From Zygnema cylindricum (taxonomy: Eukaryota; Streptophyta; Zygnematophyceae; Zygnematales; Zygnemataceae): a stretch of 64,000 nt of DNA. Positions 1 through 55,316 of the stretch are shown here, in pieces; position 1 is the stretch's first letter; each line of letters opens with the position of its first letter. The stretch lies in the NCBI GenBank assembly GCA_037447655.1, contig JBBHKE010002260.1, positions 25,437-89,436 on the forward strand, given 5' to 3'. Below the pieces are notes generated by a model. That model was given only the letters and a program-made list of their open reading frames with translations. It searched no databases and was not told the origin of the DNA. The position numbers and the translations under genes are program-made.

Positions 1-1755
1 GTACTATCTAAAATAGTGAGAGCTTCAACCACAATTGAGGAAGCTCTTTCTTGTATAGGAGAGAGAGATTCTTTCTCGAAAGAAAGTGGAATACGGGAAA
101 TCTGTAATTTACCATCCCGATTGTGATCAGGCGAGCCCTTATCAAAAGTAGCTGCCCGTTGTTGGACAATAGAATCCCGAAGGATTCGGCCGGCCAACGA
201 TGACATGTGGATGACTCTCCTTGCCATCCTCGTGAATTGGGGTTTCATTTCGGCCATGAAGGCATTAAATTGCTCCTTCATCATAACGCCCATCATGATT
301 TGTAACTCGGCCTTTTCCCTCTCTCTTCGAGAGATTTTAGGCGGAGTCGCCTCTTTCTCGGTCTCGGTAGGAGGAGTGACCTGTTTGGCAGAACGGGTAA
401 GAATTCTTTTGTTCTGGATCTGATTCTGATATGAGAAATTAGGTTCTTTAACATGACAATGGTGGATATAATGTCCTTTCTGGTTGCAATGGGTGCATGT
501 GTCCGACTTATCCGGGCACATGCGGGCATCGTGCCCTGTTTTTCCACATCGGAAAAACACAATCGGTCTACGGAATTTAATGGCGGATTTCCCATGGCCG
601 ACGTCTTTGGAGGCCTATAGAAAGCCACAGGTTCTTCGGAGGTGGTGGGGATTGGTAAAATTGGTTTTTTTAAGATTCGGGATTGTCACGAGCATCCCAT
701 CACGACGATTGCATCTCATAACTAACCCCATATTCAGCCGCTTGCTCAAAGGTAAATTTCAGTCCGTATGTTTGACTGAGATGAGTCTAAATGAATATTT
801 TCGATTGAGGAGGAAACTGTGCCACGAATTTTTGGAGAGCCTCTGCATCGGACATAAGGTTCGGTAATGCTTCCCGAAGGGTTTTTATTCTAGCTCGTAA
901 AGCAGGGGCATCTCACTCGGCCTACGTTTCAAGTTCATCAATTCCTTAACTTGATCTGGATTTTGCATCCGGTATTTTTTTTGGAGAAGATCGAACATGA
1001 CCGATAGCGGCTCACGTAAAGTAATTAATCTTCCTTGTCTAGCTGGAATTGCCGCACGGGCAACCAATGCATAGAGCTGAGGAATCTCGAGATGGCTGGA
1101 TAACGCTCATCCCCATTAACGTCCAATACTGCTAGAACACCTGCCTGGTAGGGAATTTCTACCTGGCCAAAAATGGCTGGAAGTCCTACAAAGGGTGGAG
1201 AGTACTCTGTCATTTGACAAATACTCTCATACTTCCGTGTGTATAAAGTGAGAGTCGAATCCCGAAGGTATCAGCCGAGGAGAGAGAAAGCGACCCTAAG
1301 GTCAAACTGGTCTTGAAAACGAAATGCCAAGTCACGCATTTCGGTATCATAAAACATACGAAAATGGGAAAGAGACATGGTGTCTTTCATTCCTGAGAAA
1401 CAAAATTGCATCTTCCCTATGTCCCCCTCTGAAGAGAAAGTCATGTCGTCAAAGGAAGAATGCGTTGGTGGTTCCAAATTTGGAGTAACCGGAAATTGAA
1501 ATGTGAGACGATAGGAAAATTTTCCTTTGAAAAGTCCCCTTTGGATCTATCCAGGTATGACCTCGAGGAAACCGGTGATAATGAAGAGACTGTGGTCAAT
1601 ACTGACCGAACTGACGGAGATTCAAGGACCGCAACCGAAAATGGTGCCTCCTTAGACTCGGAGAAACTGGAAAGATCTAACTGCAGTTGAAAGAAAGTTG
1701 TCCCGCTGCGGGTAGATCCGGATTGATAACGTAAGTTATCCCAATCCGTGGGCAT
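1..1755 (-). pseudogene. gag remnant of DNMT-type retroelement copy I (partial)
   Basis: Decayed capsid/nucleocapsid gene of a retrotransposon, cut by the left edge of the window. It begins at 1755 with MPTDWDNL, the same start as the copy II gag at 8176. A block at 1271-1477 contains DTEMRDLAFRFQDQFDLRVAFSLLG-type capsid sequence (DTEMRDLAFR shared with copy II), followed at 1025-1213 by a segment matching copy II. The nucleocapsid region at about 440-560 keeps traces of CCHC knuckles and the PPK-SAMGNP linker. Several frameshifts and stops break the frame, so no full protein is made. Pairwise similarity to the copy II gag is clear but far from identical, so the two belong to different subfamilies. 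Protease, DNMT and polymerase parts, if present, would lie left of the window. Confidence 0.8.
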
Positions 1756-2773
1756 AAACGAAGAGAGAACCTTCGATTACGACTATGAAAGCATGGAACG
1801 GCCTAATCGAGGTGCGTCAAATGGAAGGCCAAACCACACAAGACAAGTCAACACACAAAGTCTCTATCAAGACCCGTGGTCAGATCTAGCAAAAAGTCGT
1901 AATACCAAAACCTCTACTTGCAAACAATGGAGCAAGGCCGAAGGGCCAGATCTATAAAAACAAACAGAGAACTATCCAAGCACCTTTCGGTGCATATCTA
2001 CAGTGACACAGATAGAAAATTGTCTAAACAGTGCCACCCACGGCAAGATCTATGAATGAAAATCCAATCCAGATAGTCACAGGGAAACTCAAGGCCACTC
2101 ACGGCCAAGTAGCATGCAAGGAAAGCAAAGAAAATGCAAATGCTCAAAAAGAAAGGTTCGTAATATAACCAATCCACACCGATCCCCTACACGAGTATCG
2201 ACACTTTATCGTAACGCTCCTGCACCCAAAAGGAATCGGGATACTTAAAAACATCTTTAATCCTCTGGTGAGTATTAAAAGTGAACCGGACTTGGTTGAA
2301 ACAAGTCGGATTTTGCAGAGTCCTCAAGAACGTGATCCGCCTCGGTTCCGAATAATCGTACCCAGGACCACCACTAAACACCCAGGCAATTAGTATCCTT
2401 CTAGGGTATGCGTATCAGCGCTATGCCACGCTATACCCAACTATAAAGCAATGATAATAATATGTTATAATTCGTGCAAATCTAATTTATATGAATATAT
2501 ATTTTTACTTTGCTAGGTTTTATGAATGATTAAATTTGGCAAAGGATAAAGAAAGAGAATATCAAATCCACCACAGACTAAACATCAACTAGCGAGCAAA
2601 TGAAGTTGCACTAAAGAAAAGAAAGATAAGAAATATTGAGAAAAGCTCAAAATAAAACACAAAGTATTGTAAAATTGGGACAAAATGTTTCCCAAACCCT
2701 AATACCACGCTGCAAAAATCAAAAATCTGCGACCAAGGAATGGTAATATGCTGACCTAGGGTTAAGAATTCCA

Positions 2774-2870: not shown

Positions 2871-4135
2871 ACACAAAATCAGACCTAAATCTGCGCAGAC
2901 TAGAAATAGAGTGGCAACAAGATAGAAAGAAAAGATTGCAAGAAAGAAAGAAAAAGAACAAAACAAAATGTTTTTTTTTTCTTTTTTATAAAATAAAATT
3001 TATAAATTTATTTATTTTTATAATATTTTCTTCAAAGGCAAAACTGAAAGCAAAAGCAATAATGGAGAGAAAGTAGAATGAAGCTTGTAGAAAAATAAAG
3101 CAAAGTCAAAAGGAAAAAACCAACTCAAAAATAGGTGGGAGAAAATCTAGAAATGAAAAAAATAGATTTTCTATTGAAAATAATTTAATTTTTATATTTT
3201 TCTTCCTCCAGATTTATTTTATCACACAAAACTGAGAAGTACAACTGAAAATGAAAGGTAAATAGGCAGGAAAATAGAAAGACAAAAACAAGAATAAAAA
3301 CCGGATATGAAAGGTAATATTTTTTTAATGAAATAAAATTTATATTTTTAATAATTTAATATTAAAAAAATAGACTTTTAGAAAATGTGATTTTGAAAAG
3401 TGGAGCTTTTGGACAAGAATGCTAAGCCAGGAGGTAGCCACTAGGCTCTCTGGTCTTTATCACATTCTCTACAAGAGTTATCTCGTTACGACAGCAAAGC
3501 AAGAAATATTCCAACCGGAACAAGGGAAAATCCAAATCCGATCAAAAATACACTCCTTTCAAGCCAACCGAAATACAAACAAGACACACACAACACAACC
3601 AAACCGTCAAGTTGTCCGAGGAAAGCACAGCAAGGTCCAGATGTGCTCCCTCACGATCTCCAATCTCACACTTCCACCAAATGACAAACTTTGGAGGGAA
3701 ACCTTCCAGACGTGGCCTTAGGCCGTGTGGATTAAAAACGAAGGCAAAAAAACAAGGAGAATAGTCTTACTCTATTTAGCCTCTATAGCTAGCTAGCAAG
3801 GAGAAGAAAGACACGTGGGCAATCGGTGAGAGTGAGAGCAAGAGAAAAGCTCCGCTGCCAAGAGAAAATTCTTGTCCAAAAGCTAAATTCTCTAAGTTTG
3901 AGAATTAGGCTAAGTAAAAGCTACGCTAGGCCTAAGCAAAATTAGCCTACGTCTAGTCTACTTTACATGCATCAAACTACTTAAGATGTTGGCCAATAGG
4001 CGGCCAACATCGTCTGCCGTACGCTTGACAAAATCCACCTTCCGAGGGTAAAAACCCTCCCTAACTACATGTATGCGCGAACCTACATGGGTTCGCGACT
4101 TAAATAAATAGATATATCGAAGCGTCGCTCGGAAA

Positions 4136-4345
4136 TCGCGATACGCCTCCAAACGATACTTCGCGTCGATACTCCCGAAATCGCGTGCATACGCACAAAA
4201 CGATAAATACCGCACGAAACGAAACATATCGCACGAAATATTCCCAGAATCGCGATGCGTCGCCCAAACGATATATCGCGTCCATACTTCAGAAATTGTG
4301 TACCTACGCACGAAATGAAAGGTATCGCATGGAATTAGTACTATA
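4136..4345. repeat. Two degenerate copies of a ~116-bp direct repeat in the copy I LTR
   Basis: The block beginning ATCGCGATACG at 4136 recurs as ATCGCGATGCG at 4252. Both are followed by CCAAACGATA, CGCGTC and TACGCACRAAA at matching spacing. It lies in what should be the U3 part of the LTR. Confidence 0.6.
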
Positions 4346-4400
4346 CAGCCAAACATGAAAATAAATGAATCGACGTGAAATTGCATGTGCGACGAAACAA

Positions 4401-4564
4401 CATGAAAACGTGTGTGCATGCATAAAATCGTGCGTGCATGCAAGATACCGTGCGTGCGTGCAAAATATCGCGCGTGCATTTAAAATACAGCGCGTGCGTA
4501 CATTATATCGTGTGCACAAGGCAAATATCGCGCGTGCGGGCATGATATCGTGCGCGCGGGCAAC
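4401..4564. repeat. About eight imperfect copies of a 20-bp tandem repeat (CRTGCAAAATATCGYGCGTG type)
   Basis: Units of exactly 20 bp start at 4417, 4437, 4457, 4477, 4497, 4517 and 4537, preceded by a 16-bp unit at 4401. Each unit contains CGTGCG or CGCGCG separated by an A/T-rich core. It lies within 200 bp of the outer LTR end, an enhancer-like position. Confidence 0.8.
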
Positions 4565-4584
4565 AGACACGATGCGGCATGACA

Positions 4585-5655
4585 GGGTCTATGACACGAC
4601 CTAATAAAGTGCATCTTTAACGTCCAGTAAGACCATGAGCGACCGTAGTGCCAGGAATGGAAGGCATAAGGTGTTCTCGTTCCGTAGAGGTAGGCTCTTC
4701 GAGCTCAACGGTATGAATGTTTCGGAGCATGCCAGAACCGTCATTAGAGAATGCATGTGAATGTGGGTAAGAAACTAAGGTAGGAAGCACCTTGAGAGGT
4801 TGACCCATGACATTGACATTGAAATTAGGGGGTCAGTCCTTTTGAATGCAAGGCTGCACCTTATAAAAAGGAAGAAGGGCAGCCTCAATGTGTGTAAGAG
4901 GAGGACGAACTAACAAGTTGGCCTCACGGAGTCTACCAATATTGATCAGGTTCGTCCATTTGGAGCGAACCCGGTCTGCTAGTGAACCAGGGGGAGCCGC
5001 GTCAATAATAAGAGGCGGACCAATTAATTGTTCGATCCGTTGATAATCAGCCATGACTGTTGGTCTTCGATCATTATAGGCTGCAACATTTTCCAAGATA
5101 TACCCCATAGGATGATCTAAAGTTTGTAGAAAATGCAGGATTCGAACCAATTCAAGACATAATTTGGTGCGGGGATCGGCTAATCCGAGACCTTTCCCGG
5201 CCCGAGACATTCCTTGGCACTCCAATCCGCCAAAAACTAGATCGATTGGACCAATCTCTATTAAGTGATGGTTGCCCACAATCCGAATATCTTGTGGGAG
5301 GGCAGTATGCATATCCTCGTATGCAGATTTTGGTAACAAATGCCGGTATTGGGAATGCAACATATTACAATGATGTAATTGTGCTTTCCGTGCTAACGGA
5401 TGAATCTCAACTGAATAATAAATTGGATTAATAATTTATTCCGGAAACATGCAAGGAGGGAAGTGCCTATTCCAGCGAAAAGGTCAAAAATCATCAATCC
5501 ATTTGGATGAGGTTTCAATTGGACCGGATTCCAATTAATGGGAAGAAACCCAGAAGAGTCTGTAGGTACTAGGATTGTGGGAGAGACCGGAGAAAGTGGA
5601 ATTGACAAGGTTTGGTTATAGATTCGGTCAAATTCCCTCGTATCTATATGAAAAC
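4585..5655 (-). pseudogene. C5 cytosine DNA methyltransferase carried by a retrotransposon (broken)
   Basis: DNMT domain in the pol position, directly after the protease. Reading along the minus strand I see: motif I (IFDLFAGIGTSLLA) near 5490-5450; a motif II-like VEIHP segment near 5410; motif IV as FGGLECQGMSRAGKG near 5210; motif VI as ILENVAA near 5095; a motif VIII-like DRVRSKWTNL near 4960; and a C-terminal block EEPTSTEREHLM then LLGRVID just before 4585. The nucleophilic Cys is present, but the usual Pro before it is Glu. One frameshift near 5437 separates motif I from motif II, and in-frame stops lie at about 4833 (TGA) and 4617 (TAA). The frame ends exactly where the copy I LTR begins. 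Known family role: transfer of a methyl group from S-adenosylmethionine to cytosine C5. This copy is unlikely to be active. Confidence 0.88.
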
Positions 5656-5660
5656 CTGGG

Positions 5661-6407
5661 TCACTGAAAAAATTCTAGTAAGTAAGAACTATCGGGCATA
5701 ATTTCTTCCGCTGACAATGAATGAAATATTTCGGCCACCACCGAATTCCTTGAAAATGCAGGTATGGATGTGGCCGAATTTGCCATAATAGGCATGGGCT
5801 TCCTAGGGAAAATTAGCGGAATGCAGATTTTCCGTTCCGGGAAGTTAGTGGGTCTATAAGAAAATGTCTGATCATGCATGTCAACAACACCCCCTACACG
5901 AAATTTAACGTCTTGTCCCACTAGGCATTCATAGTCACTACATTTAGTGACTAGAGCGTGAACCGGGATTTCAGCAAAGTCTGTGGTCATTCCGTTTTGG
6001 AACCTGAAAACAAGCAGTTCCTTAGTGATTCCTAAGACTGGCTCAATTGTACCCGTTGAGGTTAACAAGCGAGTAGAAGTGGACTGAAGCTTCTCCGGAG
6101 TTAGACCAAGCTTCAGTGCAAAGCTAGAGCCCAATATCACTGGCTTTGCACCCGTATCCATGAGAGGCAGGGAAGGGGCTATACCGTTGATTAATAATGC
6201 ACCCTTCCCGTTATCCAAAAAACCGATGTGAGGATCAAGGGACTTTCGTTCCTCTATGGAAATAGGCTGAATAGCAACAAGATTTATGTGCAGCTGAAGT
6301 GCTTGTAACGCGGCAGCTGCAGCTGAGCTATCAGGGGTAAAAGAGATAGGGGAGATTTTTGGTGAGTCGGTAATCATAGTGGATAGAATGCACAAGCGTT
6401 CCTTCAC
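5661..6407 (-). CDS. Retroelement aspartic protease region (DTGA) of DNMT-type element copy II
   Basis: Open frame of 248 residues between gag and the methyltransferase. PLMDTGAKPVILG, with the catalytic Asp at residue 84, is the retropepsin active-site motif, and the flanking GALLINGIAPSL and FALKLGL fit the family fold. Such proteases cleave the Gag-Pol polyprotein. The N-terminal ~60 residues include an Ala run and are unrecognised. Its start overlaps the gag end by four bases (ATGA-type). At its end a T6 run (GAATTTTTTCAG) followed by TGA separates it from the methyltransferase frame, which lies +1 relative to it; this may be an indel or a frameshift site. No stop breaks the domain itself. 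Confidence 0.82.
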   Translation of the reverse strand: MKERLCILSTMITDSPKISPISFTPDSSAAAAALQALQLHINLVAIQPISIEERKSLDPHIGFLDNGKGALLINGIAPSLPLMDTGAKPVILGSSFALKLGLTPEKLQSTSTRLLTSTGTIEPVLGITKELLVFRFQNGMTTDFAEIPVHALVTKCSDYECLVGQDVKFRVGGVVDMHDQTFSYRPTNFPERKICIPLIFPRKPMPIMANSATSIPAFSRNSVVAEIFHSLSAEEIMPDSSYLLEFFQ

Positions 6408-8176
6408 GCGGTGTGCCTCGTGTATAGTTCAATCCACCATGTTGAGAGCTTCAACCGCGATGGCTGAAGCGGTTTCGGGCAAGGGAGGAGAAGGCTCTTT
6501 AGTGAATGACAAAGGAATGTTCTGTTAGGGGTTTTACCGTCACGGCTGTGATCGGTCGAACCTTTGTCCAACGTAGCCTCTCGTTGGTGGATGGTGGAAT
6601 CTCGTAAGATTCGACCTGCCAACGTGGGCATGTGTACAACAGTGCGAGCCATGCCAGTAAATTGTGGTTTCATTTTAGTGATGAAGGCTGCGAATTGTTC
6701 CTTCATCATAGCCACCATTTGATCTTGCATTTCTATACGCTCTCTCTCTCTTCGAGATACCTTAAGTGGAGTGGTGTCCTTCTCCGGTTCTTTAATCGGT
6801 TGAACCGGTTTTGCGGATCGAGCGGGAATGCCACCATTTTTAATTTGGTTTTCATAGGAAAATTCTGGGTTCTTTATATAACAACGTTGGACATAGTGTA
6901 TGGTTTGCTTGCAATGTGTACAGGTAACGGTTTTGTCTGGACACATTCGGGCATCATGGCCCGTCTTCCCACATCGAAAACATAATGGGTTTCCAGGAGC
7001 AATAGGTAGGGTTCCCATGGCCGAGACTTTAGGAGGTCGGTTGTTAGGACGAGGATTGTTCCATGGTGGAACAAACAGTTCTTTCGGGACCGCTTTAGGA
7101 CGGTCATGGGCTTCCCACCAACAATTTTGCATTTCGTATTCCACAGCATTCTGACGGCTTGGTTGAAAGTGGACTTCAAGCCGTACATTTGAGTCAGGTG
7201 ACTCTGAATAAATTTATAAGACAGACTCGGAAACTGTCCTATAAATTTCTGAACAGCTTCAGCATCCGACATTAAGTTCGGCAATGCTTCACGAAGAGCT
7301 TCCATACGAGCACGCATGACAGGGGCGGTCTCTCCTAACTTCCGTTCGAAGTTCATTAACTCACGAAATTGGTAAGGGTTTTGCATACGGTATTCCGCTT
7401 GCAACATTTCAAACATGAAAGAGAGCGGATCCAATATAGGGATCGTCATTGCTGGTCGTGCTGGAATTCCAACACGTGCGGCTATAGCGAACTGCTGCGC
7501 TATTCCCACAACTGCTGCTGTAATAACATCACGGTTGAGATCAAGGACTTCCGGAATAGCCGATTGGTAGGGAATTTCTGGTTGTCCTATAATAGCAGGA
7601 ATCCCAGCGAAAGCTGGAAAAAACTTTGTCATCACAAGTACGGAATCATACTTGCGGGAATAAAGAGTAAGGGCTGAACCGCGAAGGTAACGCCCTAAAA
7701 GAGAGAAAGCGACCCGTAGGTCGAACCGATCTTCGTACCGAAATGCAAGATCACGCATTTCGGTATCGAATAGCATTCAAACATGCAATAAAGTCATGGT
7801 GTCCTTCATTCCTAAAAAACAGAAATGAAGGCGACCCCCTCTCTCGGATGTGGAAGCCATTTCCAATAATGGAATGCTTGGGGATTATAATAAATTTGTA
7901 ATTTGTGGAAACCAAAAAGATAATGAATTGGATTCCGACCCGTCAACGGAATCGTGGTCTGATTCCTCTTTGAAAAATGTTGAAGACACTGATGATAGGG
8001 AAGATACTGAGGTGAGAGTAGATCGAACCGAAGGGGAAATTTGACCCGAGATATTTAGGAAAGGATGGTCCAAAAGACTTGATAAAATCAGATGGTCCGA
8101 ATTCCGTTGGCCTAAACGAGGCCGACGATCGAGTGGTTGCGACAAGATAATCAAGATTATCCCAATCGGTGGGCAT
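6404..8176 (-). pseudogene. gag (capsid plus two-knuckle nucleocapsid) of DNMT-type element copy II
   Basis: Starts at 8176 with MPTDWDNL. The conserved capsid part (DTEMRDLAFRYEDRFDLRVA, then a Retrotrans_gag-like helical region ending LTQMYG) is open from 7776 to about 7150. A frameshift near 7144 leads into the nucleocapsid part (6404-7144), which has two classical zinc knuckles: CFRCGKTGHDARMC and CTHCKQTIHYVQRC, both CX2CX4HX4C, at residues 55-68 and 75-88 of that open frame. A basic RRERERIEMQDQM stretch follows. Further stops lie between 8176 and 7776. The two knuckles point to a gypsy-like rather than copia-like element, since the copia elements to the right have one. Confidence 0.85.
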
Positions 8177-8483: not shown

Positions 8484-9857
8484 TGTTGTTTTTGAAGATT
8501 TAGTTTCGTGCGTATGTGAAATTTGATGCGCACGCGACGTTTCGTGCGTATGTATTTACGTTATATACTGTGGAGGTTCGAAAGGATTTGTGGATTGGGG
8601 GAGTAAGTGTACGATCAAAATTAAAGTTACGTGTGAGTGGCGCGAACAAACATTTGAAAATGTACGGCGGATCGCGAAGCGATCCGATATGAAATATGAA
8701 TTTAAGGTGACGAAAAATTACAAATTAAGTGACGCGAAGAAGCGTACGAAAAATACGGAATACGAAATGGAAATGGACGGCGGATCGCTTCGCGATTCGA
8801 TTTGAAATATTCAAAGAATTTGAAAAGTACGCCGGCCATATGAAACATAATGCGACAGACTGCATTTATTAAATGTGACGCCGCCGTTACGGAGCGTCGT
8901 ATTTGACACGCGACATTTATGACGAAGTACGTGATTTCGGTACGGACAAGATTTGTATGGTACGGATTGTTTGACAAGTGATTCGTGGTACACGTGGAAG
9001 GCGGATGGCGTCAGCCGATTTTTTAAGGGACCACATTGTTTTTATGACACATTATCTAGTGGACCGTACATATGCGATGTCGGTTCACTACGTGGACTTA
9101 TCGACAAGTGACTAAGCAAGTTGTCACTTATGACGCGGATTTTTGGATGCGTCGGTGTAAATATTTGAAGCATCAATGTTTTGTCTTATTTGAATTAATG
9201 ATTTAGTGTTGATTAAAATAGTTATATTTTACGTGATTAAAGAGGATATCGACACTTTAATTTATGTGTCGTATTTGCAGACAAGTGTACGCTTACGATT
9301 GCTTGACTTTCAGGTGTACGCTTACGATTAGTTTTATTTAATGACAGTTATGTAATTTACGTTGGTTATTTTGACACTTAGTGATTTGTTAACAGCTCAC
9401 AAGTGTATATATAGGTTTGAGCTTCATTAGAACTTTGATCAATGCTGGTTAGTAAAGTGGGGACCGAAGATGTAGACTTTTAGGGTTGCCGATTAGGTCA
9501 TGCACTTTGAATGATATAATGATTATTTAATTATACTTTGATTATACTTTTGTTTATGTGAAATGCATTTGTCTTTATTATTTATTTATGTTATTTTATA
9601 TATATATGTTTGATATGCATTTTTTCTATGCATTTGTCCTAGGGTTTGTTTATGTCGATTATTCCATCAAACCTTAGATGATGTCATAGGGTTTATTTAT
9701 GTTGATTATTCCATGAAACCCTAAATGTTGTTTGTTGCGTCTGTGTACGCATATGGAGGATGCATTTCATATGATTGTTCGTCGACCTATTTTTGCTTAG
9801 CTTTTTGCATGATAGTTTGGGTCGCTTCTGCGGTCTATTTTAGACTAAAGAACAACA
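8484..9857 (+). mobile_element. Solo LTR (1374 bp) of the non-autonomous family that forms the 38-56 kb array
   Basis: Begins TGTTGTTTTTG and ends AAAGAACAACA. It is flanked by the perfect 5-bp target-site duplication AGATA (8479-8483 and 9858-9862), and removing it restores continuity with the copy I leader. It aligns over its full length with the LTRs at 46727 and onward, including the doubled GTGTACGCTTACGATT, the TATATATAGG box and the AGGGTTT/AAACCCT stem-loops. It is clearly more diverged than the array LTRs are from each other. No interior remains, so it is the product of LTR-LTR recombination. Confidence 0.93.
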
Positions 9858-11859
9858 AGATATCCCACTCCGGACAAAGAAAACTCAACTAAGGCCACTC
9901 AAGGCCAGATAACAAGCTGGGAAAGCTAGACAAATGCAATGCTCAATACAAGTGGATTAACACTAATCCACTCCAAACACAATCCCTCTATACGATCAAC
10001 CGACTACCTTAACACGCGCCTATACCCGCAAGGCATCGTGATACTTACATAACACTCTTAGCAATCAGGTGATTGCCAAGGGTGAACTGCGGTTGTTCGC
10101 TACAACCGAAGTTTTGCAGAGCTCCCAAGAACGGATCCGCTCCACTAACTCCACTCCTTAGTGAAGTATGTCTCAATGTGAGCAAACGATGCCCCTTATA
10201 TATAACAAAGAAAATGGGGAAAACAAAAACCAAATACTTAAGTTAGTGTAGTATATTGTTGGCCGAAAATTGGCCAATAAGACAAAATGCAACTAACAAG
10301 CAAATGGTAATTATATATGTAAAGCTAGTTATAGATTTTTGTAGAAATGTATCTATAAATATATATTTTTGATTTTTTTTAAATGTTTTTGTATTTTTTT
10401 CTTTAGATAAAAAGAAAACCGAAATTGAAATAAAAACAAACAAGCGAGAAAAGAAAATACGACAATTTTCAAGTGCACGAATACTAAGCCGATGGATGAC
10501 CACTAGGCCCCACGGTCTATTTATATTCCTTGCAGGAGTTATCTTATCAACGATAATCTGAATTTTTGACTTAAATAAAACAAATCAAAGCATAAACAAC
10601 CGAGAAAGACAAACAACAAACTGAAAATGACAATATGCCCAACACTTATGATGTTTGAGATAGCCAAACTCAAAAGATGCACATAAGCAAATAGAAATAA
10701 ATACACAATCACAAGAAATAAAAACAACAAATCAATAATCCCAACATGCAACTTCCACACTAATAAAAGCTCAGCCACAGCCGGGAAAAGAAGTTTGTGT
10801 CGTGAGAACGCGGTTGAAATCCACTCAAAAAGACGAGAAAAGTGAAAGGAAACCGTGTAGGTCTTGGCCGAAGCCGAATAGATTAATTTGTAAGGCTTTA
10901 CAAGATATTGATAATGTAATAGAAAACTAGACGCTTCACGCAAAGTCAGAAAATCGCCTCTAAGCTGTCCGAACAATTTTACAAATAAAAAGATCGCTGC
11001 AGAAAATCCTCAATACTGAAAATAAATAATTCCTGCACTTGAAAATTGTGTGCAGGAAATGATCCGAAATGAACTAAGTAACAAAACCTACGCCTAGTGA
11101 AAACAGGCCAATCAGAGTACAGCTTGCTATGTAAGTATTTGCGTCTAGTTTGGATTCAGCCCATAGGAGGCCGAAATCCTATGCCCTACGTTACAAAATC
11201 TATAACCTACGGATTAAAACCCTTCCTATCTTCATGTGAATGCGTGAACCTCCAAATGATTCACGACTTAAAATAGTCCAATCACGTCACTTCGTCAGAA
11301 CTGACAGTCGCTTTGTCTGTCACACGCGTCAACGGTCTAGATGTGATGTTACGAAAAATTGCATGCTCTGCGTCGACGGCCGAGATGCTACTCCACGCGA
11401 AAAAATTAAAATCTGTTGTCTCCCGAAATTCACGGGAATGAAAGTTGGTACGGTACGATTATTTGTACGAGCGCAAATTCGAAAATGAGTCTTCGGCGGA
11501 TATTCCGGGAAATGAGAATAGGTACGGTAGGATCGTAGGTACGGTTCACTTTGTTGTCGCGAAAATTCCGGCAAATGTTAGTCGTACGTTTTACGTGAAA
11601 AATCGAATCCACCGTCGGCGGAAATCACGCAGAATATATACTGTACGGACGACGTGAAATGACGAAATCCACCGTCGTTGGAAATCACGGAAGATGTATG
11701 TCGTACGGTCGAACTCGCCGTCGGCAAAAATTACGAACAACGTAAGTATGTACGGCCCTGCAATACCCAAATACACTCAAATATAAATTAGTGTGGTGGA
11801 TGCCCGTCCTAACACCTAAATATAAACAATTAAAATGACCGACGAGATGCGGCATGACA
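9858..11859 (-). mobile_element. Copy II leader (continued) and 5' LTR
   Basis: Resumes the copy II leader after the solo LTR (AAGGCCACTCAAGGCCA matches AAGGCCACTCACGGCCA of copy I at 2092). The outer end on the minus strand is TGTCATGCCGCATC at 11859, or TGTTGTCATGCC if the border is at 11862. The region is AT-rich and shows no convincing gene. The copy I 20-bp tandem repeats are absent here; instead 11440-11770 holds repeated CCGTCGGCGGAAATCACG-like pieces. Inner LTR border and PBS not resolved. Confidence 0.65.
10517..10525 (-). promoter_or_regulatory. TATA box of the copy II LTR (TATAAATAG on the minus strand)
   Basis: GGAATATAAATAGACCG on the minus strand. The homologous copy I block near 3440-3460 is degraded. 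It would start transcription about 30 bp downstream, towards lower coordinates. Confidence 0.5.
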
Positions 11860-37967: not shown

Positions 37968-38888
37968 TGTTGTTTTTGGAAGATTAAGTTTCGTATGTGC
38001 GTACGCATGTTTGCGTGCGTATGTAATTATCCGATATACTGTGGAGGTTCGAAAGGATTTATGGATTGGGGAATTAAATGTACACGTAAAATTAATGGAG
38101 TTATTGAGTGGAGCGAAATGTGATAGAAAATGGACGGCGGATTCCGAAGCGATCCGACGTGAGATAATCGACGATGATTTAAAATATTCGAAGTATTTGA
38201 AAAATGTACGCTCGCCGTACAAAACATAATGCGACAGGTGGGATATATGAAAGGACACCGCCGGTACATAGAATCTTCTTTGGACAGGTGTACTTTATTT
38301 GCGACATGCGTATTTATTGCAAACGACGCAGAGTCAGTACGGAAAATATTTGGAAGGTACGGTTTAATTTTGACAAGTGGAACGTGAATTCACCACGCAA
38401 CATCGTGGGATATTTGACGACTCGCGTGGATTTTGTTTGGTTTTGTGTGACCACGTGGTGCTACATCGAGGGAGCCGATTAAGAGCGACGGACGGCGGAT
38501 ATAGGCCGCCGAGATTTTTTATGTAGTGGTGACGCGAAATCGCGTCAATCACACGATATTTATATTTGGACGTTCCGGATTGTTCGACAAAATTTGAGGA
38601 GTTTCGTTGAGTGACTCAGCATGACTCAGCATACGATTTGGTGTCGGTGTAAATATTTGGAGTAACATTGTTTTGTCTTTTGCATTATTATAAATTAGTG
38701 TTGATTATGATGTTTATATTTAAGTGATCAATTAGGGTTTTGATAGTTTAATTTGTGTGTGTACAATATCATACTTATAGACAAGTGTACGCTTACGATT
38801 GCTTGACTCTCAGGTGTACGCTTACGATTAGTTTGATTTAGTGACAGTTACGTAATTTACTTTGGTTATTTTGACACTTAGTGATTCA
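37968..38888 (+). mobile_element. Array LTR 0, left part (split by D)
   Basis: 921 bp from TGTTG, continuing at 45326-45788 to give 1384 bp. It has several private differences from LTRs 1-3 (for example GTGCGTATG for GTGCTTATG, and ACACGTAAA for ACACATAAA), as expected for the outermost LTR, which escaped later amplification. Confidence 0.93.
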
Positions 38889-39936
38889 TGAAACTCTGAG
38901 ACCTCCATAAGTCCTCAGAGTGGACAGCTTCCAAGAAGCCTCTAGGATAATCCTGACCCCTTTGTGTTTAAGCAAAAATAACTGCCACCCTGGCAGACAA
39001 AAACTCTGACCAACTTCACCCCTGTGAAGACAAGACTCCCCTGAGTCGATAGCAAAAAGAATCTCTGAATTTTCTCCCCTGTGCAGTAAGTTATGGAGGG
39101 TCAAAGTTGACCTTTTGTACAGAAGCTCTCTGGGAGAGAGGGTCCTATCTTCTAATTTTTCTAAGTCCTATCTCTCTCACAGACTCTATCTACTGATGTA
39201 CGGAACCAATCAGAATTGAGTTCCGTACGCAAAAGTACAGCTGCCGGTGTACTTTATGTACGGACATTGTACGACATGGCCAAAATGTCGACACATGTCA
39301 AATCCGGATTCGGTGCCATAATCTCCGGAGTTTCCACAATCCAACGGAATTTTGCCACGCGTCATCCGATGTGGCGATGGCCACAAACCGCCGAAATCTT
39401 CCTCCGCGATCTCGGCGCTAATCCCGGCCGTCCGATCAAATTCGGCTTTAATCGTAGCCGTAATAAATACATGCGCGGTATTTGTTTCATTTACAAAACA
39501 AATGCGCGGTACTGATTTTTGTCCGTACCGTAAGTCGTACATTATATATTACTGGATCTATGTATCCCGTAATCAATTTCAGTTAAATGGTTTATCGCTT
39601 GTATACATATGTAAATAATTATCAAACTATATACTAGGTAACACTACCGCTAGATTAGACGGCTAAGGCTACCGGCTACTTGTGTCTGCCGGCCGGCAGG
39701 TACAAGGATCAAATCCTGCCGCCGGCACATACATTTTAATTAAATATATAAACCCTAATATAAAATTCCCGTAAACCTTAGGATAGCCAAGGTAGCCATG
39801 GCTCTAGCTTCCTCTCCAATTTCTCAGTGACTGCGACAAGTTTGAGAGTTGGAGAGAGAAGTTAGAGATAGACTGCCTCGACTTCTATATTTCTTTTCAG
39901 ACCTAGAAAATACTAATAAAACCATTAGTTTCTACA
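38889..39936 (-). mobile_element. D 3' LTR
   Basis: TGAAACTCTGAG to GTTTCTACA on the plus strand. The tRNA-like block is at 39648-39727 with CTGCCGG/CCGGCAG and AGGATCAAATCCT. On the minus strand GTACAAAAGGTCAACTTTGACC is the promoter-like segment, with back-to-back TTGAC W-box-like cores. Confidence 0.94.
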
Positions 39937-39949
39937 CTCCCCTTATTTT

Positions 39950-42900
39950 CTAGTCAATCTTTAATTTCAGACCACACTTCTCCCTGCAAAAAATTAGCTT
40001 AGGGGAAGGCACAGGTTTGGTCATCATATCTGCTACCATCTCACTATCTGGTCTGTACTCTAAACTGATTATTTTGTTTTCTACTTTCTCTCTAACAAAG
40101 CTGAGTCTGATGTCCATGTGTTTGGCTTTAAAATGGTGTTTAGGATTGGCAGAAATAGCGATTGCTGCCTGATTATCACAAAATATTTTCTGCACACCAC
40201 TCTTAAGGTGACCAAGCTCACCAAGCAAAGACTTGACCCACATCAATTCTTTTACAGCAGAGCAAGAGGCCATATACTCAGCCTCCATGGTGGACTGAGC
40301 AATAACCTTTTGCTGTTTGCTACTCCAACAGCAAGCCCCATCACCCACATATAATACATATCCAGAAGTACATCTCCTCATCGGAGCATCGCCATAACTG
40401 GCATCACTCCAAGTAGTGATGTCAGTATTCTCCCCACCCAAATGCAACCATAGATCTCTAGTTCCTACCAAGTATCTAAGGACTCTCTTAGCTGCCTCCC
40501 AATCCTTCTTAGTGGGAGCATTTAGACTTCTACTCAGCACTCCTACAGCTGCAGCTAAATCCGGCCGGGTACAATTCATAAAATAGATTAGACTTCCCAC
40601 TACTTGCCGGTAAGGAATAGTCTGCATGAACTTCTGTTCTTCAGGAGATAATTCCTCGTCTAAGACTATGACTCCTTCTTCCTCACTCCCCTCACTTCCC
40701 TTCTTCAATTCCATTGGAGTTGTACAACTATTAGCTTTATCCATTTGAAATTTTTCAAGCATGTTCCCTATTGCTTCCTTTTGAGTCAATCTTATAATTT
40801 TTCTTTTTCGGTCTCTCTCTACTTGAATTCCCAAAATATATTTTGCTTCCCCCATATCCTTCATTTCAAATCTCCCCTTAAGATCGGTTTTCAGTTTATT
40901 AATTTTTTCCATTGATTTACTTAAAACAAGCAAATCATCAACATAAATTGCAATAAATATAAAACCTTCCTCATCTTCGAAAACATAGATTGAGTGATCT
41001 GAGCTGATCCGAATATATCCTAGACCGGTAAGAAACTCATCAAGCTTCTTATTCCACTGTCGGGGCGCCATAAAGAGATTTAATCAGCCGGCATACCTTA
41101 CTCTCCTCTCCTTCTTCCACAAACCCTTCGGGTTGTCGCATGAAGATCTCCTCTTCTAATTCTCCATGCAAAAAGGCTGTTTTGATGTCCATCTGGTGCA
41201 CTTCCATGTCTTCCGCCGCTGCTAAACTGAGAAGTATGCGGACGGAGGGAAATCTGACCACCGGGGCAAAGGTTTCCTCGTAGTCAATTCCTTCCTTTTG
41301 TGTAAATCCCTTTGCCACTAATCTGGCCTTGTAGCGCTCGATTGTGTTATCTGGGTTCAGTTTTAGTTTGAAAACCCACTTACAACCGATTGGTTTTCGG
41401 TTAGGTGGACAGTCCACCAGCTCCAAAGTATCGGCTGCCATGATTGAAGCCATCTCCTCATTGATGGCTGTCTTCCACCGGTTTCTTTCTGGACAAGTCA
41501 TCGCCCCTCGATAAGTTTGAGGTTCATCTTGATGAGATAGTTTAGTTACCTTGTTATTAACCTGTTTTTCTTGCATTCTTTTGCTACTTCTCCTCCCTCC
41601 CTCAAAATCTGAGGCCGGAATAGATGGTTCTCGTGGATTCTTTCGAACAAACTCGGCTTCTCCCCTATCCCTTGATTCCGAATCAATTTCCACCACGTCT
41701 TCCGCTTCGAGTAGAGTTGTCACTGGTGTTTCCACAGCCGAGTCCTTTTCAGTCTGATTTGTTCCTGCAAGAATGTCATCGTCTCTAAAACCTGGATAGT
41801 TAGGAAGCTCAAAGTCATCAGAATTTTCTGACTCAAATCTGATTTTTACTGACTTTGTATATTTGAAAGGATCCACAGACTTTCCTTCATCCATAACTAC
41901 TAGATGCTTTACTAAGATTATATCTTCTCTTTTTAGATCATAAACTCTATATCCTTTAACATCCTCATCATATCCTAATAAGTATCCCGGTTTTCCTTTA
42001 GGATCTAGCTTCCAATTGGACCGATCAGTATCTAGACTGAATACTTGACTGCCGAAAACCTTTAAATGAGATAAGTCTGGTTTCCGGCCTGTCCATCTCT
42101 CATAAGGTGTTTGATCTTTTATAGCTGAAGTAAGAACTCTATTTTTGAGGTAATTAGCACAGTTCATTGCTTCTGCCCAAAACCTTTTTCCTATCTTCTA
42201 TCCGACAACATACTTCTAGCACTATCACTTAGTGTTCTATTTAACCTTTCAGCCACCCCATTCTGTTCCGGGTTTTCTGGAATTGTCTTTTGGTGTTGGA
42301 CCCCATCTTCCCTCATAAAATCCTCAAACTGGTTAGAAGCATACTTTCCACCATTGTCACTCCGTATTCTCTTGATTGGAGTTTCATGGAGTTTTTCGCT
42401 CCATGCTTTATATTGTCTAAAACAATCCTGAGCTTCTGACTTGTTTTTCAAAAAATACACCCGGGAATACGGAGACCAATCATCAATCATAGTCATCATA
42501 AATCTCTTCCCCCCCGGTAAGGGCACTCTAGCTGGTCCCCAAATATCTGTGTGTACTAGATCTAGAATTTTTTTCTCCCTTATAGGTGGCTGTTTTAGGA
42601 AAGGGTAATTTGTGTGCTTTACCTTGAGCACATCCACTACAATCACTTATATCATCACTCTCACTGAACTGAATCCCTTCCACCACACCCATCTTTTTCA
42701 TCTCTCTTAACTTATCTAGATTCACATGCCCAAGCCTCTTATGCCACATCATAATTTCATGAACACCACTTTAATAAAGTTTCTTCGTTTCATTACTTAA
42801 GATCAGCCTAAACATCCCATGGCTACCTTTCTCAGCAATGAAATAGACATCCTCCTCAAAACTAGCAGTAAAGACTCCTTCCCTACTGGTAGTGAAAAAA

Positions 42901-45325: not shown

Positions 45326-45788
45326 ATTGACAGCTCACAAGTGTATATATAGGAATGAGCTTTGTTAGAAATTAATCATCAATGCTGGTTAGAAAAGTAG
45401 GGACCGAAGATGTAGACTTTTAGGGTTGCCGATTAGGTCATGCATTTGAGTAATATGTTTATTGATATACTTTTGTTTATCTAATGTTTATGTGAGATTG
45501 CACTCTTTTTGTTATTATTTATTTATGTTATTTTATGTTTGTTTGATATGCATTATTTATGCATTTGTCCTAGGGTTTGCTTATGTTGATTATTCCATCA
45601 AACCTTAGATGTTGTCATAGGGTTTATTTATGTTGATTATTCCATGAAACCCTAAATGTTGTTTGTTGCGTCTGTGTACGCATATGGAGGATGCATTTCA
45701 AATGATTGTTCGTCGACCTATTTTTGCTTAGCTTTTTGCATGATAGTTTGGGTCGCTTCTGCGGTCTATTTTAGACCAAAGAACAACA
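45326..45788 (+). mobile_element. Array LTR 0, right part
   Basis: 463 bp completing LTR 0 after D, from ATTGACAGCTCAC to AAAGAACAACA. Contains the TATATATAGG box and the R/U5-like part. Confidence 0.92.
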
Positions 45789-46726
45789 GGTTATGAGCCC
45801 ACACCCCATCTATCATATGTTAGGTTAAGTCGAGATAGGTTTGTGTCACACGCATTGTAGCAGGTTAATTTTGTTCTTGCTGGTTGTATTGCAGTAATGG
45901 TGTCTGTGTACCCATGAGATCGGCCTTATCATAGTGTTGGTATGTGCCGAGTTTAATCTTGCATCGCCCCAAGGGTTAACTTAGTGACAGTGCCGAAATG
46001 ATTACCCTCAATGAAAATTATTTATTTTGAGAAATGATATTTTATTTTTGGAAAAATACATGTTTATTTTTGATAAAGCATTTCGAAACGTGGAGATTTG
46101 ACGTTTGATGGAGAGATGTGGAAGGTGGAGATTCGACGTTTGGGGGAGAGAGATCCGGAAGGTGGAGTTGTGACATGTGGTGGAGAGATCCAAAATTTGT
46201 GGATCGATGATTGTTAAAAAAAAAAAAAATTGGATTTGTAATGTAGATTTTGAGTTGTTGGAACTTTTTGGGAAATGTGACATTATTATAATTTTTGGGA
46301 AAATACTATTTGTTAAATGTATTTTTAATGGGAAATTTTGAGATCAGATTATTAAATGAAAAAGAAAAAAAATGAAATCTAGATTTGATATGGTTGAGGT
46401 ATAAATTTTGAGTTGGGTTATATTATTAGTGTGATCCTTTAGTTTTAATTTTAGTTGACTTGAGATAGAATTGTAGGAAGTAGAATCGAATTTAGATATT
46501 GTTGAGAAAATAGAAAATTTTGTTGTAATCGGAAAATGAAAATATATATATGTGTATTATGAAATTTGGAAGGTTTAAGGAGGCAGCGGAAGCAGTGATA
46601 GAACAAAATTGCAAATTTTATCGGAAGTATTTTGGCAGATTCAGATGAAGGAGACAGCAGGAGGTGATAGTAGTGACACATAATGACGTGGCATCATGGA
46701 GTTACGAAACTAAATCTTCGGGGGAG
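45789..46726 (+). mobile_element. Array interior 0 (938 bp, non-coding)
   Basis: Begins GGTTATGAGCCCACACC (PBS with one G-to-A change from the other units) and ends CTTCGGGGGAG (polypurine tract). AT-rich, with an A13 run near 46217. No supported coding sequence. Confidence 0.9.
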
Positions 46727-47209
46727 TGTTGTTTTTGGAAGATTAAGTTTCGTATGTGCGTACGCATGTTTGCGTGCTTATGTAATTATCCGATATATTG
46801 TGGAGGTTCGAAAGGATTTATGGATTGGGGAATTAAATGTACACATAAAATTAATGGAGTTATTGAGTGGAGCGAAATGTGATAGAAAATGGACGGCGGA
46901 TTGCGAAGCGATCCGACGTGAGATAATCGACGATGATTTAAAATATTCGAAGTATTTGAAAAATGTACGCTCGCCGTACAAAACATAATGCGACAGGTGG
47001 GATATATGAAAGGACACCGCCGGTACATAGAATCTTCTTTGGACAGGTGTACTTTATTTGCGACATGCGTATTTATTGCAAACGACGCAGAGTCAGTACG
47101 GAAAATATTTGGAAAGTACGGTTTAATTTTGACAAGTGGAACGTGAATTCACCACGCAACATCGTGGGATATTTGACGACTCGCGTGGATTTTGTTTGGT
47201 TTTGTGTGA

Positions 47210-47217
47210 CCACGTGG
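47210..47217. promoter_or_regulatory. G-box CCACGTGG in array LTR U3
   Basis: Perfect palindrome, about 450 bp upstream of the TATA box. It recurs in each complete array LTR. Plant G-boxes bind bZIP or bHLH factors; function here is inferred. Confidence 0.4.
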
Positions 47218-47370
47218 TGCTACATCGAGGGTGCCGATTAAGAGCGACGGACGGCGGATATAGGCCGCCGAGATTTTTTATGTAGTGGTGACGCGAAATC
47301 GCGTCAATCACACGATATTTATATTTGGACGTTCCGGATTGTTCGACAAAATTTGAGGAGTTTCGTTGAG

Positions 47371-47390
47371 TGACTCAGCATGACTCAGCA
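47371..47390. promoter_or_regulatory. Tandem TGACTCAGCA x2 (GCN4/bZIP-type sites)
   Basis: Two exact adjacent copies of TGACTCAGCA in U3, present in every array LTR. TGACTCA is the GCN4/AP-1 core recognised by bZIP proteins. The diverged solo LTR at 8484 lacks the perfect doubling. Confidence 0.45.
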
Positions 47391-47543
47391 TACGATTTGG
47401 TGTCGGTGTAAATATTTGGAGTAACATTGTTTTGTCTTTTGCATTATTATAAATTAGTGTTGATTATGATGTTTATATTTAAGTGATCAATTAGGGTTTT
47501 GATAGTTTAATTTGTGTGTGTACAATATCATACTTGTAGACAA

Positions 47544-47588
47544 GTGTACGCTTACGATTGCTTGACTCTCAGGTGTACGCTTACGATT
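47544..47588. promoter_or_regulatory. Direct repeat GTGTACGCTTACGATT x2 upstream of the TATA box
   Basis: 16-bp repeat at 47544-47559 and 47573-47588, 13 bp apart, ending about 75 bp before the TATA box. It is also conserved in the old solo LTR (about 9283-9330), which suggests selection for promoter function. Confidence 0.5.
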
Positions 47589-47664
47589 AGTTTGATTTAG
47601 TGACAGTTACGTAATTTACTTTGGTTATTTTGACACTTAGTGATTCATTGACAGCTCACAAGTG

Positions 47665-47674
47665 TATATATAGG
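47665..47674 (+). promoter_or_regulatory. TATA box of array LTR (TATATATAGG)
   Basis: In CACAAGTGTATATATAGGAA, at the same place in all LTRs of this family, including the solo LTR and the last partial copy. Marks the U3/R transition roughly 30 bp downstream. Confidence 0.6.
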
Positions 47675-48109
47675 AATGAGCTTTGTTAGAAATTAATCAT
47701 CAATGCTGGTTAGAAAAGTATGGACCGAAGATGTAGACTTTTAGGGTTGCCGATTAGGTCATGCATTTGAGTAATATGTTTATTGATATACTTTTGTTTA
47801 TCTAATGTTTATGTGAGATTGCACTCTTTTTGTTATTATTTATTTATGTTATTTTATGTTTGTTTGATATGCATTATTTATGCATTTGTCCTAGGGTTTG
47901 CTTATGTTGATTATTCCATCAAACCTTAGATGTTGTCATAGGGTTTATTTATGTTGATTATTCCATGAAACCCTAAATGTTGTTTGTTGCGTCTGTGTAC
48001 GCATATGGAGGATGCATTTCAAATGATTGTTCGTCGACCTATTTTTGCTTAGCTTTTTGCATGATAGTTTGGGTCGCTTCTGCGGTCTATTTTAGACCAA
48101 AGAACAACA

Positions 48110-49047
48110 GGTTATGGGCCCACACCCCATCTATCATATGTTAGGTTAAGTCGAGATAGGTTTGTGTCACACGCATTGTAGCGGGTTAATTTTGTTCTTG
48201 CTGGTTGTATTGCAGTAATGGTGTCTGTGTACCCATGAGATCGGCCTTATCATAGTGTTGGTATGTGCCGAGTTTAATCTTGCATCGCCCCAAGGGTTAA
48301 CTTAGTGACAGTGCCGAAATGATTACCCTCAATGAAAATTATTTATTTTGAGAAATGATATTTTATTTTTGGAAAAATACATGTTTATTTTTGATAAAGC
48401 ATTTCGAAACGTGGAGATTTGACGTTTGATGGAGAGATGTGGAAGGTGGAGATTCGACGTTTGGGGGAGAGAGATCCGGAAGGTGGGGTTGTGACATGTG
48501 GTGGAGAGATCCAAAATTTGTGGATCGATGATTGTTAAAAAAAAAAAAAATTGGATTTGTAATGTAGATTTTGAGTTGTTGGAACTTTTTGGGAAATGTG
48601 ACATTATTATAATTTTTGGGAAAATACTATTTGTTAAATGTATTTTTAATGGGAAATTTTGAGATCAGATTATTAAATGAAAAAGAAAAAAAATGAAATC
48701 TAGATTTGATATGGTTGAGGTATAAATTTTGAGTTGGGTTATATTATTAGTGTGATCCTTTAGTTTTAATTTTAGTTGACTTGAGATAGAATTGTAGGAA
48801 GTAGAATCGAATTTAGATATTGTTGAGAAAATAGAAAATTTTGTTGTAATCGGAAAATGAAAATATATATATGTGTATTATGAAATTTGGAAGGTTTAAG
48901 GAGGCAGCGGAAGCAGTGATAGAACAAAATTGCAAATTTTATCGGAAGTATTTTGGCAGATTCAGATGAAGGAGACAGCAGGAGGTGATAGTAGTGACAC
49001 ATAATGACGTGGCATCATGGAGTTACGAAACTAAATCTTCGGGGGAG
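48110..49047 (+). mobile_element. Array interior 1
   Basis: 938 bp. PBS GGTTATGGGCCCAC (48110-48123) directly after the LTR; it matches 14 bases of the complement of the plant initiator tRNA-Met anticodon arm. Differs from interior 0 at a few sites; virtually identical to interiors 2 and 3. Confidence 0.93.
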
Positions 49048-50430
49048 TGTTGTTTTTGGAAGATTAAGTTTCGTATGTGCGTACGCATGTTTGCGTGCTT
49101 ATGTAATTATCCGATATATTGTGGAGGTTCGAAAGGATTTATGGATTGGGGAATTAAATGTACACATAAAATTAATGGAGTTATTGAGTGGAGCGAAATG
49201 TGATAGAAAATGGACGGCGGATTGCGAAGCGATCCGACGTGAGATAATCGACGATGATTTAAAATATTCGAAGTATTTGAAAAATGTACGCTCGCCGTAC
49301 AAAACATAATGCGACAGGTGGGATATATGAAAGGACACCGCCGGTACATAGAATCTTCTTTGGACAGGTGTACTTTATTTGCGACATGCGTATTTATTGC
49401 AAACGACGCAGAGTCAGTACGGAAAATATTTGGAAAGTACGGTTTAATTTTGACAAGTGGAACGTGAATTCACCACGCAACATCGTGGGATATTTGACGA
49501 CTCGCGTGGATTTTGTTTGGTTTTGTGTGACCACGTGGTGCTACATCGAGGGTGCCGATTAAGAGCGACGGACGGCGGATATAGGCCGCCGAGATTTTTT
49601 ATGTAGTGGTGACGCGAAATCGCGTCAATCACACGATATTTATATTTGGACGTTCCGGATTGTTCGACAAAATTTGAGGAGTTTCGTTGAGTGACTCAGC
49701 ATGACTCAGCATACGATTTGGTGTCGGTGTAAATATTTGGAGTAACATTGTTTTGTCTTTTGCATTATTATAAATTAGTGTTGATTATGATGTTTATATT
49801 TAAGTGATCAATTAGGGTTTTGATAGTTTAATTTGTGTGTGTACAATATCATACTTGTAGACAAGTGTACGCTTACGATTGCTTGACTCTCAGGTGTACG
49901 CTTACGATTAGTTTGATTTAGTGACAGTTACGTAATTTACTTTGGTTATTTTGACACTTAGTGATTCATTGACAGCTCACAAGTGTATATATAGGAATGA
50001 GCTTTGTTAGAAATTAATCATCAATGCTGGTTAGAAAAGTATGGACCGAAGATGTAGACTTTTAGGGTTGCCGATTAGGTCATGCATTTGAGTAATATGT
50101 TTATTGATATACTTTTGTTTATCTAATGTTTATGTGAGATTGCACTCTTTTTGTTATTATTTATTTATGTTATTTTATGTTTGTTTGATATGCATTATTT
50201 ATGCATTTGTCCTAGGGTTTGCTTATGTTGATTATTCCATCAAACCTTAGATGTTGTCATAGGGTTTATTTATGTTGATTATTCCATGAAACCCTAAATG
50301 TTGTTTGTTGCGTCTGTGTACGCATATGGAGGATGCATTTCAAATGATTGTTCGTCGACCTATTTTTGCTTAGCTTTTTGCATGATAGTTTGGGTCGCTT
50401 CTGCGGTCTATTTTAGACCAAAGAACAACA
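49048..50430 (+). mobile_element. Array LTR 2
   Basis: Same length as LTR 1, and I saw no differences between them on reading. Confidence 0.94.
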
Positions 50431-55075: not shown

Positions 55076-55316
55076 GGTTATGGGCCCACACCCCATCTAT
55101 CATATGTTAGGTTAAGTCGAGATAGGTTTTTGTCACACGCATTGTAGCGGGTTAATTTTGTTCTTGCTGGTTGTATTGCAGTAATGGTGTCTGTGTACCC
55201 ATGAGATCGGCCTTATCATAGTGTTGGTATGTGCCGAGTTTAATCTTGCATCGCCCCAAGGGTTAACTTAGTGACAGTGCCGAAATGATTACCCTCAATG
55301 AAAATTATTTATTTTG
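55076..55316 (+). mobile_element. Array interior 4, truncated
   Basis: First 241 bp of an interior, from the PBS to TTATTTATTTTG, then directly joined to LTR sequence. Confidence 0.88.

Follow-up and report, generated by a model that had tools for sequence, protein, structure and literature searches.

A probable Ty3/Gypsy retrotransposon family with a Dnmt3-like methyltransferase in its polyprotein in Zygnema cylindricum

What kind of genetic element encodes a gag, a protease and a cytosine-5 DNA methyltransferase (DNMT) in succession and then breaks off at the last methyltransferase motif? The question is raised by a stretch of 64,000 nucleotides of the Zygnema cylindricum genome, here called the window (contig JBBHKE010002260.1, abbreviated C1707, positions 25437-89436), whose minus strand encodes these parts from 7866 to 4585. 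Comparison with further copies in the genome searched (352.8 Mb in 2689 contigs) indicates that the feature is probably the 5' part of a damaged copy of a Ty3/Gypsy long terminal repeat (LTR) retrotransposon, whose polyprotein has the order gag, protease, DNMT, reverse transcriptase (RT), RNase H, integrase and PHD finger. A sequence-only reading of the window had placed the element among the DNMT-carrying retrotransposons reported by de Mendoza et al. 2018 (PMC5890265); the domain composition and the rotated repeats described there agree with this placement.

The coding region of the window copy is split over several overlapping frames by frameshifts and a few stops, as judged from the list of open reading frames and their translation. 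The reference for its alignment is the genomic copy L009, which has one unbroken frame of 2395 codons running gag/CCHC-protease-DNMT-RT-RNase H-integrase-PHD. The gag with its two CCHC knuckles (6404..7866, minus strand, broken frames) is 60-65% identical to residues 152-600 of the L009 polyprotein; the gag frame proper spans 7776-6874 and the knuckle frame 7213-6404, where zf-CCHC scores 20.9 bits against a cut-off of 20.8. A retropepsin-type protease with the motif LMDTGA (5661..6428, minus strand) matches residues 602-888 at 61%, and Asp_protease_2 on 6428-5661 (E 6.8e-5, 23.9 bits) falls slightly below its cut-off of 24.3. The Dnmt3-like methyltransferase (4585..5674, minus strand, broken frame) matches residues 881-1244 and holds motifs I, IV (LECQG), VI and VIII and the start of X. 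Its motif I frame, 5674-5393, has no Pfam match alone, the frame with motifs IV, VI and VIII, 5435-4833, matches PF00145 (DNA_methylase) with 36.1 bits against a cut-off of 22, and the C-terminal block is a single frame with two in-frame stops up to the motif X sequence LLGRVIDP at 4585. Open reading frames, Pfam matches and the L009 alignment thus bear out what had been read from the letters, namely two CCHC knuckles, a DTGA protease and methyltransferase motifs I, IV, VI and VIII with a C-terminal block, on one strand and in polyprotein order.

The match to L009 stops at window 4584, at L009 residue 1244. The abrupt end of the methyltransferase at 4585 is due to a nested insertion: another member of the family, itself internally deleted, sits inside the methyltransferase of the outer copy and is accompanied by a 4-bp target duplication. 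One copy of the duplicated ACCC lies at 4585..4588 (minus strand, 5' copy) and the other at C1707:22770-22773, outside the window; the inner element ends at C1707:22774 with the terminal sequence GCACGACA, flanked by this duplication. Directly after it, at about C1707:22774-22755, the outer copy restarts. It continues with L009 residues 1247-1883 at 78% identity and 1884-1973 at 63%. Integrase and PHD, residues 1968-2395, follow at 82% as far as C1707:19316, and the repeats B1, A2 and B2 complete the copy at C1707:17437. The bounds first proposed for the element, 4585..8176, therefore gave way: the coding part starts at 7866, the 5' end of the element lies near 11859, and the element resumes beyond the nested insertion and outside the window.

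Two other explanations of the locus turn on this break. A fragment of a host methyltransferase gene among unrelated gag pieces would account for a window without an RT of the DNMT family and for a DNMT that breaks off at 4585. The break is, however, a nested insertion with a 4-bp duplication, RT, integrase and PHD lie beyond it, and the order is unbroken in L009 and kept in most of the 20 fetched copies; a host fragment has practically no probability. The second explanation is a non-autonomous gag-protease-DNMT element that has lost its RT and integrase and borrows them, for which the apparent next terminal repeat directly after the window's gag, protease and DNMT could be cited. It was rejected on the RT, integrase and PHD found beyond the nested insertion, the outer copy resuming with its post-DNMT part at C1707:22755, and is very improbable. 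The inner copy is a deletion derivative of that sort, yet it lacks the DNMT too.

Searches of the genome with the window DNMT gave 1353 first-look candidates, of which 150 were scored, the window's own included. None of their matches has an E-value above 8.0e-82, which makes 150 a minimum for the number of such places, and the first observation of a retroelement DNMT cannot be due to chance, since this domain is encoded at 150 scored places of one genome. Identity to the window DNMT is 65-90% in the other 149. Twenty copies (L009-L028) were fetched for their long frames or high scores, which makes them a non-random sample, and their domain order was read from where the domain matches begin. 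RT follows the DNMT on the same strand in 19 of the 20, whereas in L022 the part from RT to PHD lies on the opposite strand. The sequence-only reading had looked to other copies for the gag-protease-DNMT order and for an intact DNMT-RT fusion: the order recurs in most of the fetched copies, with RT downstream, and the fusion is present in the 2395-codon frame of L009. By domain matches, gag was not found in three of the 20 (L022, L023, L027), nor was the protease in L023, and L027 has only a stub of the protease. A PHD finger is present in 17, L013, L020 and L027 being those in which it was not found, and the C4HC3 pattern is complete in 12 of the 20. The integrase of L009 is of the rve type (Pfam) and stands in the Gypsy order RT-RNase H-integrase within one polyprotein; no tyrosine recombinase is among the Pfam matches of L009. 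Protein searches with 200 residues of the window DNMT and 300 residues of gag yielded no scored match, and a search of viral contigs confirmed none.

The methyltransferase itself is, judged by sequence comparison, Dnmt3-like. Among PDB sequences the window DNMT matches DNMT3A at E 1.4e-7 and the family DNMT matches DNMT3A/B/C best, at 1.1e-10 as against 2e-3 for HhaI; DNMT3 ranked first in listings that held no entry for DNMT1, CMT or DRM. The structure predicted for a relative, P0001, has a Dnmt3 fold and the first 33 rows of its fold list are all DNMT3, the Foldseek and VIA lists being filled by DNMT3 and bacterial enzymes, which makes the absence of other classes from them uninformative. 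A single-sequence prediction for the window piece had a mean predicted local distance difference test score (pLDDT) of 33 and was discarded. The motifs run I-IV-VI-VIII-X, not rearranged, inside the polyprotein. Capture from a bacterium or phage instead of a eukaryotic Dnmt3 could be argued from the PHROG profiles, where phrog_116 reaches E 1.9e-17, and from a comparison with 50,697 phage records, 240 of which match with an E-value of 1e-3 or lower. E-values from profiles cannot be set beside those from single sequences, and both the ranking of DNMT3A/B/C far ahead of HhaI and the fold list speak for DNMT3, which leaves such a source improbable.

The active site departs from the usual form. 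Glutamate precedes the motif IV cysteine in 21 of 22 distinct copies; the catalytic cysteine is likewise kept in 21 of 22, and ENV and RxR are mostly kept. The earlier suggestion of a possibly distinct lineage was made from LECQG in the window copy. LECQG is a variant of WECQG; the mark in common is ECQ and not the leucine, and PCQ also occurs among relatives. C5 methyltransferases nearly always have proline where this family has glutamate.

The element DNMT is under purifying selection. Whether it methylates its own element was approached through base composition. CpG observed/expected ratios lie at 0.84-1.03 in 10 copies, taken as whole 9.9-kb loci, whereas two stretches of Copia coding sequence in the window have 0.51 and 0.48; the ratio is 0.82 for the whole window, 1.20 for its last 8 kb and 1.28 for a tandem array within it. 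Transitions between the two A repeats (A1 and A2) of one copy were also counted, with a loose definition of CpG-type positions. The share at such positions was 0 of 3 in C829, 3 of 6 in C1915 and 8 of 23 in C2602, and 46 of 80 in C449, 48 of 160 in C2526 and 14 of 48 in C232. Such transitions are many in older copies. These counts suggest that inserted copies are CG-methylated and decay at those positions, and they do not indicate the enzyme responsible. CAG/CTG trinucleotides are scarce in the L011/L018 subfamily (0.71-0.72) and frequent in copies L009 and L013 (about 1.2), a contrast that possibly reflects a difference in CHG methylation history.

Several of these observations tell against a methyltransferase that marks its own copies. 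CpG depletion was sought in the 10 copies and none was found, which excludes depletion by chronic CG self-methylation, and composition gives self-methylation no support. With glutamate replacing the near-universal proline of motif IV, catalytic activity is not assured. Between subfamilies the DNMT is less constrained than RT (proportion of nonsynonymous differences, pN, 0.11-0.16 against 0.03-0.05), and the DNMT of the related KnitGypsy-Dnmt3 gave no methylation in yeast, a test its authors called inconclusive (PMC5890265). The undepleted CpG, the glutamate in 21 of 22 copies and the inactivity of that Klebsormidium nitens enzyme would all fit a DNMT that acts on host DNA or RNA, or serves as a non-catalytic nucleic-acid-binding part, while the kept cysteine, the mostly kept ENV and RxR, the purifying selection and the predicted Dnmt3 fold of P0001 oppose such a role; it deserves serious weight as a minority explanation.

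How such an element replicates is suggested by its ends. Ten elements had both flanks fetched, and in seven of them (C1344, C2602, C232, C2526, C829, C1915, C449) the arrangement A1-coding-B1-A2-B2 is complete. C1407 has one repeat pair resembling B1/B2, and no pair was found in C2577 and C783. Simple LTRs had been considered and were rejected once the B repeat appeared. The elements start with TGTC and end with GACA, and perfect 4-bp target duplications flank six of nine, the two window elements counted. Six of seven have a run of G before B1. A1 and A2 are identical over 931 bp in C1344, 99.5-99.6% identical in C829 and C1915, about 97% in C2602 and 78-89% in C2526, C449 and C232; recent insertions, with identical terminal repeats and an unbroken frame, thus coexist with old ones.

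At the joint of B1 and A2 the sequence GCACGACA-GC-TGTCATGCC forms a near-perfect palindrome. This joint is present in 11 of the 20 fetched loci, with an identical 19 nt in 10 of them. Over 13 loci the 20 nt of the junction agree at 0.96 per column, as against 0.51-0.69 for the neighbouring stretches. As an independent test, GCAYGACANNTGTCATGCC has 234 exact matches genome-wide and its reversed control none. Contigs up to C1147 hold 65 of the scored DNMT copies; of the first 100 listed places, 17 are downstream of one of these copies, on its strand and 1.5-7 kb away, and the others are all more than 7 kb from any of the 65. At the A2/B2 joint of genomic copies the end of A abuts the start of B directly, as a circle joint would.

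In eight of nine elements the 15-21 nt directly after A1 form a perfect complement to a part of A that lies 460-600 nt upstream, where shuffled controls give at most 12. Three subfamilies have three distinct primer-site sequences, each matched by its own partner, and this co-variation is the best evidence that the elements may be self-priming. In the window, the outer element has its 5' terminal repeat, A1, at 10484..11859 (minus strand); this repeat starts with TGTCATGCC at 11859, and its inner end is approximate, set by the primer site. The TGTCATGCC at 11859 had been considered as the end of another DNMT and was rejected in favour of the A1 start. Window 10483-11420 is 90% identical to C1707:17627-18572 in the 3' copy A2, and a second block, 11447-11859, is 71% identical to C1707:18721-19104. 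The putative primer binding site adjoins A1 at 10462..10477 (minus strand) as a 16-nt exact complement of A1 positions 811-826, window 11034-11049; the shuffled control gives at most 10 nt. Neither Rfam, at gathering scores, nor a scan for tRNAs gave a match.

From these ends a replication cycle can be proposed. The RNA would very probably start inside A at the complementary stretch, fold back and prime its own reverse transcription, as in Tf1. Plus-strand synthesis would then likely begin at the polypurine tract before B1. With that tract before B1 and the primer site after A1, the LTR would be B-A and the linear product B-A-coding-B-A. Its ends could join into a two-LTR circle, and the DDE integrase could cut the palindromic B/A junction GCACGACA-GC-TGTCATGC and insert the element as A-coding-B-A-B with a 4-bp duplication, a step for which the chances appear even. 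Somewhat less probably, the DNMT, freed from the precursor it shares with RT, would act de novo on new complementary DNA or on the circle before insertion; guidance of the insertion site by the PHD finger beside the integrase is held with the same reserve.

Some details of the ends count against this cycle. The duplications of C449, C2526 and the outer window copy are imperfect, the last because its 3' flank is TATT and the TATT at its 5' end sits two bases away from TGTC. Before B1 the G run is missing from C2526, and in C232 and C829 it stands off by two bases. C232, where the end of A was poorly delimited, also gave no primer-site match. The junction agreement of 0.96 is partly circular and no independent evidence, because the 13 loci were picked for holding the joint. 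Rotated repeats could also arise by the DIRS/PAT route, through a single-stranded circle or template switching, the palindrome being merely a conserved end sequence. A-coding-B-A-B is the published DIRS arrangement (PMC5890265), and conservation of the junction would be expected equally if both of its sides were end sites of the integrase. L009, however, has an rve integrase and no tyrosine recombinase among its Pfam matches, and the duplications (six of nine) and the polypurine run (six of seven) fit LTR-type DNA synthesis. The defining features of the DIRS/PAT order, a tyrosine recombinase and insertion without target duplication, are those in which the family differs, and the DIRS/PAT route is a substantial but less favoured possibility.

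Tf1/Sushi and Tcn1 chromoviruses carry chromodomains, and the self-priming match of Tf1 is 11 nt. They have ordinary LTRs and no DNMT, and the primer match in the family here is 15-21 nt. Self-priming is predicted for them as well (PMC6317226). The cut proposed here has its counterpart in the HIV-1 integrase, a DDE integrase that cleaves the palindromic end-to-end junction of two LTRs in vitro (PMC1905944); here such cleavage is proposed, from sequence, as the usual path to insertion, given that integrated copies are rotated.

The closest known system is KnitGypsy-Dnmt3 of Klebsormidium nitens, a Dnmt3 in a Gypsy polyprotein with DIRS-like repeats (PMC5890265). By its published description it shares with the family here the Gypsy domain composition, a non-rearranged Dnmt3-like DNMT in the polyprotein, the arrangement A-coding-B-A-B, purifying selection on the DNMT and a streptophyte host. 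As far as that description goes, the Zygnema family would differ in its PHD finger, its WECQ motif IV and its at least 150 copies, and in its 4-bp duplications, palindromic junction and self-complementary primer site; the word PHD is absent from the main text of that paper. SymbioDIRS-Dnmt3 and SymbioLINE-Dnmt of Symbiodinium (PMC5890265) are also retroelements with a cytosine methyltransferase, the DIRS type with A-coding-B-A-B, and are described with a tyrosine recombinase or LINE machinery, in contrast to the rve integrase and LTR-type priming here. Retrotransposon-embedded DNMT3 is mentioned for streptophytes and dinoflagellates (PMC12344493). In open-licence literature listings no other DNMT retroelement with a PHD finger, target duplications, a palindromic junction or self-priming was found. 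As far as these sources describe it, the element is of the same kind as KnitGypsy-Dnmt3, and the 4-bp duplications, the near-palindromic B/A junction and the co-varying primer site are new.

A second DNMT-RT family of the same genome is represented by L052 (C544:127300-130500), where a DNMT with a canonical motif IV, AGWPCQ, shares a single frame with RT and RNase H downstream of it. It is 40% identical to L009 in the DNMT and 50% in RT-RNase H. A genome search with PF00145 gave further places with a similar profile span, of which L052 is the one examined. As the order is the same in both families, one capture before their split is suggested. In Closterium the relative P0008 has a DNMT with a protease match upstream, which hints at a wider streptophyte clade, the protease match being weak.

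The nested element of the window begins with its A1 at 3425..4584 (minus strand; TGTCATGCC at 4584, inner end approximate) and has a 17-nt primer-site complement of another subfamily's sequence type. Its leader and gag (1..2060, minus strand) run off the window and are 64% identical to the outer copy at the nucleotide level; tandem LTR-LTR copies were considered for this gag pair and rejected in favour of a nested insertion. Beyond the window it continues with L009 residues 633-867 (protease region) and then jumps to 2255-2391 at 26% identity; comparison with the L009 polyprotein revealed no DNMT, RT or integrase in this inner copy, the part beyond the window included. It has kept its ends and target duplication, and may have been mobilised by relatives or deleted after insertion. 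A later insertion lies in the leader of the outer element (8490..9860, boundaries approximate, strand not assigned), where the collinear match between outer and inner copy stops at 8481 and picks up again at 9887; parts of it share 79-88% identity with units of a tandem array that occupies 45326-55802. That array has a period of about 2321 bp and units 98-99% alike, each holding about 920 bp also present at window 37968-38889. Copia elements occupy window 12000-45300 in both orientations, apparently nested, with long open RT-RNase H frames, for example 39950-42197 on the minus strand.

DNMT retrotransposons, which carry an enzyme of the sort that serves to silence them, were previously reported from one streptophyte alga and from dinoflagellates, and the present family extends them to a host with many copies. 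Recent and old insertions coexist there, so methylation calls on copies of known age can test directly what the DNMT does. Together, the rotated repeats, target duplications and palindromic junction make a concrete model of replication out of a published oddity. In its widest form, which is tentative and rather unlikely to hold in every part, that model would be a streptophyte-wide self-priming Gypsy lineage whose circle is opened at the palindrome and whose ECQ Dnmt3-type writer and H3 reader mark and place its copies, copies that may partly explain the expansion of PHD proteins in the host. Twelve contigs of the genome have GRAS matches divided into exons, which fits Zygnematophyceae or land plants. 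Zygnema cf. cylindricum SAG 698-1a is reported to have 29.8% Copia and a PHD family that exceeds those of the other Zygnema strains by a factor of at least 9 (PMC9915684). If that strain is the host, the PHD finger of the retrotransposon may be the cause of the reported expansion, and some of the PHD proteins tallied in such algae may belong to transposons.

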